Shown piece after piece: positions 26,126 to 28,293 of a stretch of DNA of 41,268 bases. A program made the position numbers and the translations under genes. The first letter of the stretch is position 1. Every line of letters begins with the position of its first letter. The DNA is taken from assembly GCA_030532425.1 (NCBI GenBank), contig JAUNLD010000021.1:1-41268 (forward strand), read 5' to 3'. The DNA comes from Lautropia sp. GTDB taxonomy: Bacteria; Pseudomonadota; Gammaproteobacteria; Burkholderiales; Burkholderiaceae_E. The notes under the pieces were generated by a model. It saw only the letters and a program-made list of their open reading frames with translations, searched no databases and was not told the origin of the DNA.

Positions 26126-27457
26126 ATGGGCAACACCATTCTCCAGAGCCTGCCGATCGGCCAGAAGGTCGGCATCGCCTTTTCCGGCGGCCTCGACACC
26201 AGCGCAGCCCTGCACTGGATGCGCAAGAAAGGCGCCATTCCCTATGCCTATACCGCCAACCTCGGCCAGCCCGACGAACCGGACTACGAGGAAATCCCGC
26301 GCAAGGCCAAGCTCTACGGGGCCGAGCTGGCCCGCCTGATCGACTGCCGCAGCCAGCTGGTGGCCGAGGGCATCGCCGCCCTGCAGTGCGGCGCCTTCCA
26401 CATCTCCACCGGTGGCGTCACCTACTTCAACACGACCCCGATCGGCCGGGCCGTCACCGGCACGATGCTGGTGGCCGCCATGAAGGAGGACGATGTCAAC
26501 ATCTGGGGCGACGGCAGCACCTACAAGGGCAACGACATCGAGCGTTTCTACCGCTATGGCCTGCTCACCAACCCCTCGCTGAAGATCTACAAGCCCTGGC
26601 TCGACCAGCAGTTCATCGACGAGCTGGGCGGCCGCGCCGAAATGTCGGCCTTCATGGCCGAGGCCGGCTTCGACTACAAGATGTCGGCCGAAAAGGCCTA
26701 TTCCACCGACTCGAACCTGCTGGGCGCCACCCACGAGGCCAAGGATCTGGAATACCTGAACAGCGGCATCCGCATCGTCCAGCCCATCATGGGCGTGGCC
26801 TTCTGGAAGCCCGAGGTCGAGATCAGGCCCGAGGAAGTCACGATCCGCTTCGAGGAAGGCCAGCCCGTGGCCCTGAACGGCCAGAGCTTCGACAACCCGG
26901 TCGAGCTGATGCTGGAAGCCAACCGCATCGGCGGCCGTCACGGCCTGGGCATGAGCGACCAGATCGAGAACCGCATCATCGAGGCCAAGTCGCGCGGCAT
27001 CTACGAGGCCCCGGGCATGGCGCTGCTGTTCGCCGCCTACGAGCGGCTGGTCACCGGCATCCACAACGAGGACACGATCGAGCAGTACCGGATCAACGGC
27101 CTGCGTCTGGGCCGGCTGCTCTATCAGGGCCGCTGGTTCGATCCGCAGGCCATCATGCTGCGTGAAACGGCCCAGCGCTGGGTGGCGCGCGCCATCACCG
27201 GTGAAGTGACGCTGGAGCTGCGCCGCGGCAACGACTACTCGATCCTGAACACCGAATCGCCCAATCTCACCTATCACCCCGAGCGGCTGACGATGGAAAA
27301 GGGCGACTCCGTCTTCTCGCCGGCCGACCGCATCGGCCAGCTGACGATGCGCAACCTCGACATCACCGACACCCGCGACAAGCTGGCCGGCTACACCCGC
27401 GTCGGCCTGCTCGCGGCCGGGGCCGGCCACGAGCTGCCGCAGCTGAAGAAGGACTGA
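26126..27457 (+). CDS. argG: argininosuccinate synthase
   Basis: A 443-residue enzyme joining citrulline and aspartate with ATP in arginine synthesis. It is of the longer E. coli-like type: [50 protein letters not shown] (ATP pyrophosphatase motif SGGLDTS), [50 protein letters not shown] and the ending LPQLKKD. The ATG at 26126 has GGAG ten bases upstream; TAAAAT at 26081-26086 may be a -10 box. The last 75 bases, plus the following terminator hairpin, are repeated at 28169-28293, beyond the toxin-antitoxin pair. The gene itself is intact. Confidence 0.96.
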
Positions 27458-27504
27458 TCCTGACGGATCGTAAAGGGGTGCGCCTTGCCGGGTGCACCCT
27501 GTCC
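27383..27504 (+). repeat. left copy of duplicated argG tail
   Basis: It covers the last 25 codons of argG including its stop and the following terminator. It matches 28169-28293 with two substitutions in the 75 coding bases, an exact 50-base block (27414-27463 versus 28200-28249), a 3-base insertion in the right copy, and several differences in the hairpin. The start-to-start distance is 786 bases. Confidence 0.9.
27476..27499 (+). terminator. hairpin after argG
   Basis: GGGTGCGCC and GGTGCACCC pair over nine positions (one G-U) around a 6-base loop. It lies 18 bases past the argG stop. There is no long T run. A diverged counterpart sits at 28259-28293. Confidence 0.55.
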
Positions 27505-27580
27505 ATGACGCGCGCCAGGCGTATGGCCGGCGCTGGCCGTCATGAGCCAACAGCCTTGCCTTTGCCGACCATATCGGGCA

Positions 27581-27598
27581 TGATGTACATCAATTGAT
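27581..27598 (+). promoter_or_regulatory. nested palindromes upstream of the antitoxin gene, likely autoregulatory operator
   Basis: TGATGTACATCA (27581-27592) is a perfect palindrome and overlaps a second one, ATCAATTGAT (27589-27598), which extends to TGTA...TACA with one mismatch. They end 18 bases before the antitoxin ATG. RelB/DinJ-type antitoxins repress their own operon through such sites. A TATACA element at 27598-27603 is too close to the start for a normal leader. Confidence 0.55.
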
Positions 27599-27616
27599 AT
27601 ACAAAAGGTGATGAAC

Positions 27617-27883
27617 ATGGCAAACAGCGCCCTGGTCAGCGTCAGGATCAGCGAAGACGTGAAACGAAAAGCCAGTGAAGTGCTGGCAGGCGCCGGCCTC
27701 ACCATTTCCGACGTGATGCGCATGACGCTGACCAAGATCGCCAGTGAACAGCGCTTCAGCTTCGACTATCAGCCCAACGCCGAAACCGCTGCCGTGCTTC
27801 AGGCCATCCAGCGTGGCCAGGAGCCCATGAACCGCGCCGACAACATCCAGGCGCTGATGGAGCAGCTCGATGCTGCCGATTGA
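27617..27883 (+). CDS. RelB/DinJ family antitoxin
   Basis: An 88-residue antitoxin. The start at 27617 (MANSALVSVRISEDVKRKASEVL) is preferred over the GTG at 27608 and ATG at 27611, because AGGTG lies six bases upstream and the N-terminus then matches DinJ. Residues 1-44 form a ribbon-helix-helix DNA-binding unit (VSVRISEDVKRKASEVLAGAGLTISDVMRMTLTKIA). The C-terminal part (about 50-88) would wrap and inhibit the toxin. It overlaps the toxin gene by 14 bases, as is typical of these operons, and is preceded by palindromic operator candidates at 27581-27598. The pair lies between two copies of the argG 3' end. Confidence 0.88.
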   Translation: MANSALVSVRISEDVKRKASEVLAGAGLTISDVMRMTLTKIASEQRFSFDYQPNAETAAVLQAIQRGQEPMNRADNIQALMEQLDAAD

Positions 27884-28136
27884 GTACACCAACGCCTTCA
27901 AACGAGACTTCAAGAAGCACGCTGGATTGGCCCTGTCCGAAAACTGGATCGAGGCCCTTTACTGCCTCTGCCAGCAAAGCCCCCTGCCCGCCAAATATCG
28001 GGATCATGCACTCACGGGCAACTGGCAGGGTTTTCGTGATTGTCATATTCAGCCAGACCTGGTGCTGATCTATCGGCAGACGGAACGGTCACTTGAACTG
28101 ATCCGTATTGGCAGTCACGCAACCCTCTTTGGCTGA
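27870..28136 (+). CDS. YafQ/RelE family mRNA interferase toxin
   Basis: An 88-residue ribosome-dependent endoribonuclease. It follows the YafQ pattern: EYTNAFKRDFKK at the N-terminus, then YRDHALTGNWQGFRDCHIQPDLVLIYR and the ending IRIGSHATLFG. From memory of E. coli YafQ, catalytic His50, His63, Asp67, His87 and Phe91 correspond, with a constant shift of four, to His46, His59, Asp63, His83 and Phe87 here, so the active site looks intact; the position after Asp63 is Leu rather than the Trp I recall for E. coli. The start overlaps the antitoxin by 14 bases. Just past its stop, from 28169, comes the second argG tail. Confidence 0.9.
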   Translation: MLPIEYTNAFKRDFKKHAGLALSENWIEALYCLCQQSPLPAKYRDHALTGNWQGFRDCHIQPDLVLIYRQTERSLELIRIGSHATLFG

Positions 28137-28168
28137 AAGAGTGTGTCACGAGCTGATTTGCATCCACA

Positions 28169-28243
28169 CTGGCCGGCTACAACCGCGTCGGCCTGCTCAC
28201 GGCCGGGGCCGGCCACGAGCTGCCGCAGCTGAAGAAGGACTGA
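28169..28243 (+). pseudogene. orphan copy of the argG 3' end
   Basis: It encodes the last 24 residues of argininosuccinate synthase ([24 protein letters not shown]) and a stop, with two amino-acid changes from the intact gene (Thr to Asn, Ala to Thr). It has no start codon or upstream argG sequence; homology begins abruptly at 28169. It was left by the event that placed the toxin-antitoxin pair between the two copies. Confidence 0.85.
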
Positions 28244-28258
28244 TCCTGATGACGGATC

Positions 28259-28293
28259 GGACAGGGCTGCGCCCTGGCGGGCGCACCCTGTCC
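28259..28293. terminator. bidirectional hairpin between the argG tail copy and the giant repeat protein gene
   Basis: GGACAGGG pairs with CCCTGTCC and, inside it, TGCGCC with GGCGCA, giving 14 base pairs with one bulged C and a 6-base loop. It stands between convergent genes, so it can serve both strands, although neither side has a T run. Confidence 0.55.

Follow-up and report, generated by a model that had tools for sequence, protein, structure and literature searches.

In this study, we report a DinJ/YafQ-type toxin-antitoxin (TA) pair flanked on each side by a copy of the argG 3' end, argG being the argininosuccinate synthase gene, on a contig of Lautropia sp. (assembly GCA_030532425.1, contig JAUNLD010000021.1). 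The contig was analysed over its whole length of 41,268 nt, referred to here as the window, and belongs to a draft genome of 125 contigs and 3.1 Mb with 88.78% completeness. The locus consists of an intact argG ending in its own tail (t1), the TA pair, a second tail without a gene body (t2) and a giant open reading frame (ORF). This order, together with relatives that carry a single tail and with other TA pairs bracketed by duplicated gene ends, supports a recombinase-free insertion with long target duplication at the argG 3' end, to which we assign a probability of about 0.5. We also put forward, as a tentative proposal, that gene-end brackets of this kind may be a general recombinase-free way by which chromosomal TA pairs arrive and persist, with entry by single crossover and retention by addiction, the ends of ilvD and argG acting as sites of TA exchange.

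Duplication of the argG tail

argG (26126..27457, + strand), the target gene, encodes a full-length protein of 443 aa and was assigned using the NCBIfam equivalog PRK05370 (889.6 bits, cut-off 657) and Pfam. The gene-proximal copy t1 (27383..27504, +, 122 bp) consists of the last 75 coding nucleotides of argG and the hairpin region that follows. The distal copy t2 (28169..28293, +, 125 bp) repeats the argG 3' end and hairpin region in the absence of any argG body; both copies were identified as direct repeats and by folding. They are separated by 664 bases (27505-28168). The similarity between them is beyond chance (blastn E 6.9e-47), and a 911-base query running from t1 through t2 had a single match in the genome. 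Two of the 75 coding bases differ between the copies, both changes being non-synonymous (ACC/AAC and GCG/ACG), while the non-coding remainder carries 6 base differences and a 3-base indel. The hairpin of t2 is longer (-38.3 kcal/mol, 28241-28300, 60 bases) than that of t1 (-27.4 kcal/mol, 27455-27510, 56 bases). t2 begins abruptly 75 nt before the stop codon with no trace of argG upstream of it, and the bases immediately outside t1 and t2 differ on both sides.

The DinJ/YafQ pair is the sole gene content of the 664 bases between the tails, where no integrase was found. The dinJ-type antitoxin gene (27617..27883, +, 88 aa) matched Pfam RelB (57.2 bits) and TIGR02384, both past the cut-off, and the solved structure of a DinJ antitoxin (PDB 4ml0_A, E 6e-14). 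The yafQ-type toxin gene (27870..28136, +, 88 aa) overlaps dinJ by 14 nt and ends 32 bases before t2; its product matched Pfam YafQ_toxin (100.9 bits) and RelE_StbE past the cut-off and TIGR00053 just under it (83.0 bits, cut-off 87.25), and its closest solved structures are YafQ toxins (9lew_B, 4ml2_A and 4q2u_B). This is the arrangement that defines a DinJ/YafQ pair, in which an antitoxin gene of the RelB/DinJ type precedes and overlaps a toxin gene of the YafQ type. Both genes encode full-length proteins, and PADLOC returned no match for the pair. The initial annotation, made from the DNA letters and their translations, had placed this pair between the two tails, had noted that the terminator parts differ more than the coding parts, and had seen no integrase. 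Results confirmed the coordinates, the protein families and the pattern of differences, as well as the missing integrase for the bases between the copies.

Compared with seven relatives of the genus, the two copies gave identities over the aligned tail of 73.3-92.4% for t1 and 74.7-91.1% for t2. Since t1 and t2 are 97% alike (73/75) and neither exceeds 92.4% with any sampled relative, the duplication is local to the Lautropia lineage of the window. The possibility that argG is a mosaic with a foreign 3' end was also considered, and nine blocks of 148 nt were compared with G006, G005, G007 and G001; no clear 3' break was seen, the last block having the lowest or tied-lowest identity for G006 and G005 only.

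Comparison of the argG locus with relatives

Eight other genomes of the genus were used for the comparison, with one genome per species. In G005 and G006, both of other species, argG has one tail only, next to which lies a relative of the giant ORF, with no DinJ/YafQ pair in between. The empty site that the initial annotation had suggested looking for, argG with one tail and the giant gene, was thus found in two genomes. In the window the giant ORF (28300..34245, - strand, 1981 aa) was taken from the ORF map and is convergent with argG; it had no match in Pfam, NCBIfam or PADLOC, and shares about 72% nucleotide identity over 4 kb with its counterparts in G005 and G006 (blastn). The sequence 3' of t2 resembles, as compared by eye, that 3' of argG in G005, which suggests that of the two flanks the one with t2 and the giant gene is the older neighbourhood.

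In the other genomes the region following argG has a different content. An SbcD-like gene directly follows argG in G007, other genes are found 3' of argG in G001, G002 and G008, and no argG was found in G004. In the window, an SbcD-like metallophosphatase gene (35010..36527, +; Pfam Metallophos; TIGR00619 at 55.2 bits, below the cut-off of 77.65) forms the far border of the interval. The contig of G003 starts within the last 131 bases of argG, and its tail is followed by a GNAT/TacA1 TA pair, an MgtC gene and others. A DinJ/YafQ pair then occurs 4.9 kb past the argG tail (5038, versus 135 in the window locus), followed by an SbcD-like gene, with neither a second argG tail nor a giant gene in the interval. 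The block shared with the window, 27572..28136 (+), is 80% identical at the nucleotide level (blastn, insert positions 68-632 against L038 5038-5601) and comprises both genes of the DinJ/YafQ module along with the region upstream of them. The differing gene content across the relatives indicates that the interval between argG and the SbcD-like gene is variable. The GNAT toxin/TacA1 antitoxin pair of G003 lies directly after argG (L038 200-1003, -), which gives two TA pairs in that interval.

A second copy of the own argG tail was found at none of 11 other argG loci (seven of the genus and four of other genera) within the fetched stretches. Mobility at argG, as the initial annotation had it, is seen only as a derived arrangement in one genome; the related pair of G003 is present there without a second tail. 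Two outcomes that the initial annotation had named as adverse to mobility were not encountered: no sampled relative has the same arrangement, and the relation of the tails to each other and to the sampled species gave no sign of an ancient duplication of argG.

Gene-end brackets around other TA pairs

Other YafQ loci were examined for similar brackets. This set contained 131 loci (the window, its copy L192, L173 and six duplicates were dropped), of which 120 had enough flanking sequence. A strict criterion was applied, namely a direct repeat of at least 35 bp and at least 85% identity, with a spacing of 500-1000, straddling the TA pair. Four of the 120 loci were positive (L055, L120, L201 and the integron-like L190). 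Within these loci, 152 of 48,609 non-TA positions were positive, which gives an expectation of 0.38 against 4 observed (binomial P 0.0006; 0.0065 without L190). As an unselected control, a scan of 100 stretches of 20 kb from five complete genomes (2.0 Mb) gave 184 positives among 189,200 positions (P 7e-6, or 0.0002 with L190 excluded). Two more strict positives (L215 and L219) came from 30 HigB loci, of which 26 had a right flank of 300 bases or more. A further comparison by Fisher test (7/150 versus 1/2000) was set aside, as it counted the irregular locus L222 described below and its second row was a rough gene number.

Altogether, six clean gene-end brackets and one irregular bracket were identified among the 161 other YafQ or HigB loci. 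The clean ones involve a parE-like tail, a glutaredoxin terminator, a comF-like start, an ilvD tail, a tRNA-Arg end and a tRNA-like end. In L055 (Moraxella catarrhalis), the 87-bp repeat takes in the final 24 bases of a gene for a ParE-family toxin together with the sequence behind it; the YafQ frame of this locus has an in-frame stop. L201 carries a 35-bp repeat of the start of a zinc-ribbon (DZR_2) gene, which we take to be comF. At L219, a HigB locus, the repeat is an ilvD tail of 169 bp and 85% identity. In L167 (936-2278), a tRNA-Arg gene and a perfect 43-base copy of its end enclose a YafQ pair together with a 76-aa frame; this bracket is wider than the strict cases. In L215, a HigBA pair lies between 39-bp copies of a tRNA-like end, where ARAGORN found no complete tRNA and the contig ends. 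Neither L167 nor L215 has an integrase inside the bracket. The irregular case, L222, has a 287-bp repeat of a rhodanese-gene tail at a spacing of 1013, outside the spacing window; its second copy holds 46 nt of the HigA frame, so that it is no plain duplication of the neighbour's end and was counted apart.

L120, from a metagenome-assembled genome of Peptococcaceae, carries a 41-bp repeat in the order glutaredoxin-gene terminator, TA pair, second terminator and recG. Its repeat, like that of L055, occurs exactly twice in the respective genome. An empty counterpart with the glutaredoxin gene, one terminator and recG is present in G819, and an occupied counterpart in G814, the copies of which are identical over 37 bases and about 81% identical to the L120 repeat. 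Copies within one genome have therefore either been kept alike or been inserted twice, by gene conversion or by repeated insertion. Dating of insertions by tail identity was dropped, because the glutaredoxin copies match within a genome and yet differ between genomes. The terminator copies of L120 (4576-4616 and 5276-5316) and of L233 are 95% and 100% identical within their genomes and about 81% identical between them.

In L190, the YafQ pair lies in an array of several repeats of about 120 bp with attC-like motifs and a spacing of about 730 bp, probably a chromosomal integron. The TA cassette of L190 resembles the argG locus in having a TA pair between repeats of such length and spacing. The R' and R'' core motifs of attC sites have the consensus GTTRRRY and RYYYAAC, and these were absent from both strands of t1 and t2. 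An integron cassette at the argG locus was ruled out by these missing motifs and by the presence of only two repeat copies, as against the several of L190.

A slightly wider scan of the unselected stretches detected 18 repeat pairs. Of these, 11 belong to a single tandem array (L312); the remaining 7 include L358 and L374, the latter of ambiguous nature, and none of them encloses a recognised TA pair. The array of L312 (375-3117, in G129) has a unit of roughly 235 bp. In L358 (8122-9218), a 49-bp repeat including a tRNA-Phe end surrounds a 254-aa frame without a Pfam match. A ParE-type TA pair that adjoins a RelB/YafQ-type pair was found between two 73-bp repeats in L064 (3794-4574).

ilvD as a possible site of TA exchange

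When 26 genomes around the L219 genome were searched, 19 gave matches, and nine ilvD loci were fetched from eight of these. Four loci have a tail bracket, and five (G129, G246, G834, G839 and G439b) have a single tail within the fetched 1-3 kb. The duplicated ilvD tails enclose a HigBA pair in G172 (169 bp), a DUF1902/HicA pair in G276 (206 bp), a DUF433/PIN_10 pair in G334 (151 bp) and an HTH_17/PIN_3 pair in G439a (271 bp). The duplications end at or a few bases from the stop codon and start at varying distances before it; the length of duplication at one target thus varies among these ilvD self-matches, while at argG a single insertion is known. The initial annotation had also suggested looking for other cargo between duplicated argG tails. 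At argG this found nothing, the 11 other loci having no second tail, whereas differing cargo does occur between duplicated ilvD tails.

In three of the four bracketed ilvD loci, the two tails are mutually closest among the tails compared. The exception is G172, in which the gene-proximal tail is 89.5% identical to the tail of G334 and 83.7% to its own second copy. G334 retains a HigA remnant, and shares with G172 the sequence following the second tail and nearly the same start of the duplication; from sequence, the two look as if cargo had been exchanged inside one bracket. The four different TA pairs in tail brackets at the ilvD 3' end (L272, L273, L274 and L279) occur within one bacterial family. 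In G129 and G246, ilvD is followed by a DNA methylase gene.

Proposed mechanism and alternative explanations

In the mechanism that we favour for argG, a DNA fragment in which the TA pair comes after an argG tail would enter the cell, its source probably being a conspecific strain, and its ends would be joined to form a circle. RecA would then insert the circle into the chromosome by a single crossover in the argG tail. The product would be an intact argG with one tail, the pair, and a partial second tail of variable length on an unharmed old flank, the junction between pair and t2 (28168/28169) representing the ligated fragment ends. Alternatively, a staggered break followed by fill-in could give the same product from a donor that need not have the pair beside argG. 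Recombination between the copies would delete the insert, but cells losing it would be poisoned by leftover YafQ; addictive cargo may thus stay in brackets from which other cargo is lost. The persistence of the bracket despite possible deletion between its copies suggests selection by addiction. The alternative given in the initial annotation, recombination with the pair-bearing argG locus of a related strain, fits at least as well as the insertion first named there, and is close to this mechanism.

Several points weigh against the insertion. Neither a circle nor a donor was seen, nor, with one genome available per species, a conspecific strain with an empty site, and the crossover model needs a donor that already had the pair beside argG. 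The pair of G003 lies in the same interval without tails, and may therefore predate the duplication there. The strict thresholds were fixed after the first bracketed cases were known. When the flank test was relaxed to any repeat of 80 bits or more lying within 1.5 kb, YafQ loci were not enriched (5 of 76, the window included, versus 11 of 240 random positions), so that the signal came only from the tight, straddling test.

Since the interval between argG and the SbcD-like gene in G003 also holds a DinJ/YafQ pair of 80% nucleotide identity, there without a giant gene, the pair may be older than the split. In that case the newcomers would be t2 and the giant gene, brought in downstream of the pair by an imprecise recombination that left a donor argG tail behind. 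The TopA tree of the relatives, in which several supports are below 0.8 and to which G003 contributed only 394 residues, leaves room for this by not singling out a closest relative. However, the giant gene directly follows argG in G005 and G006 with no pair there, the position of the pair is not shared with G003 (5038 versus 135 from argG), and tails of the same lineage on both sides would still demand a donor of the same species; we regard this history as rather unlikely, although likelier than the other alternatives. A remnant of a site-specific island at the argG 3' end, with t1 and t2 as attL and attR and the integrase lost, we consider improbable. Such islands do typically come with a duplicated gene 3' end, and the pairs of L167 and L215 are bracketed by a tRNA-Arg end (43 bp) and a tRNA-like end (39 bp) with no integrase. 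Yet the argG copies are long (122-125 bp) and imperfect, the interval contains the pair only, the length of the ilvD duplications ranges between 151 and 271 bp, the duplicated part in L201 is a gene start, and no second tail occurs at the 11 other argG loci. The comparison with tRNA-targeting islands made in the initial annotation is therefore retained as far as a gene 3' end is duplicated and the target left whole, whereas a site-specific island supplying a replacement tail is not supported, given the missing integrase, the unfixed ilvD lengths and those 11 loci.

An artefact of assembly, in which two co-occurring strains (one with argG, t1 and the pair, the other with argG, t2 and the giant gene) were fused into one contig, is conceivable for a draft of this fragmentation and completeness in which the contig is the window itself, and the relative G003 is metagenome-assembled. 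The junction at 28168/28169 joins sequence that has no counterpart upstream of an argG tail, so that a merge at the repeat alone would not produce it, and like brackets with empty counterparts exist at other loci; such a chimera is very improbable. We give least credence of all to a decayed duplicate of the whole argG with the pair inserted between the copies. In its favour are the missing gene body of t2 and the two non-synonymous coding differences, such as a dead copy would show, but the tails resemble each other more than those of any sampled species, and the abrupt start of t2 leaves no argG remains before it.

Other features of the window

The DinJ/YafQ module is AT-rich (G+C 55.9%, versus a window mean of 65.2%); 10 of 815 windows of 565 bp were as low or lower in G+C, counting those overlapping the pair. 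A second GC-rich hairpin directly after t1 (27505..27543, +; fold of 27500-27550, -25.7 kcal/mol, z -2.5) is presumably a terminator. Upstream of dinJ, a palindromic stretch at 27584..27603, detected as an inverted repeat with no strand assigned, is a possible autoregulatory operator, and a similar stretch was seen by eye upstream of the pair of G003. Relatives of YafQ are widespread, with 221 confirmed stretches in the species collection, of which the best 80 were retained, and with matches in 1219 plasmid records, all except one below 60% identity. dprA (21143-22603, +) lies directly upstream of topA; DprA is a transformation and recombination protein that non-transformable bacteria also have. 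No tRNA or tmRNA was found in the window.

Relation to known systems and significance

The closest precedent is given by restriction-modification (RM) systems, some of which are described in reviews as inserting with duplication of the target over long and variable stretches, around 100 bp in size (PMC3874152, PMC1643837, citing Nobusato 2000; Furuta 2010). The argG locus, with direct copies of 122 and 125 bp around its cargo, shares with these insertions a small, presumably addictive pair, long direct copies (of varying length at ilvD), empty alleles in relatives and the lack of a recombinase. It differs in that the cargo is a TA pair, which does not cut DNA, and in that the duplicated part is the 3' end of a housekeeping gene with its hairpin. 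The authors of PMC3031569 propose that post-segregational killing aids the movement of RM genes and that the same could apply to TA systems.

A screen for homology-facilitated illegitimate recombination (HFIR) in E. coli is reported to have given in 56 of 60 clones a product diagnostic of target-end duplication instead. Duplications in 14 sequenced clones measured 109-950 bp, and were explained by a single crossover of a circle that had lost part of its homologous end; HFIR itself generally loses target sequence (PMC3240628). The crossover product in E. coli resembles the argG locus in its intact target end, foreign DNA and partial copy of the target end, although the assay employed a laboratory plasmid and a selected marker, whereas argG is a natural locus with no donor seen. 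HFIR has also been proposed for effector-immunity modules of the type VI secretion system of Vibrio cholerae (PMC5361080), where, as at argG, a toxin-immunity module enters by a homologous anchor and old sequence is displaced downstream. In contrast to HFIR, with its hallmark of target loss on insertion, the argG end is duplicated and the older flank seems to be retained, as judged by eye against G005. Islands at tRNA 3' ends likewise duplicate a gene 3' end around their cargo and leave the target gene whole, but the argG locus has no integrase and probably no fixed core, its cargo is a single gene pair, and its target is a protein gene.

In the open-licence literature searched, no description of TA pairs between duplicated ends of neighbouring genes was found. 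The pair at argG is a module of familiar type in an unusual location, and the phenomenon described for RM systems is extended to four kinds of TA pair at ilvD and to several other genes. How chromosomal TA pairs outside plasmids, phages, transposons and integrons enter and are maintained is an old open question. A gene-end bracket offers a readable record of the event, from which the old sequence, the position of the joints and the form of an empty site can be told. In the RM brackets, the nuclease could be held responsible for the breaks; brackets around TA pairs that do not cut DNA shift the weight from DNA cutting to addiction, a view that laboratory strains and a genome census could put to the test.

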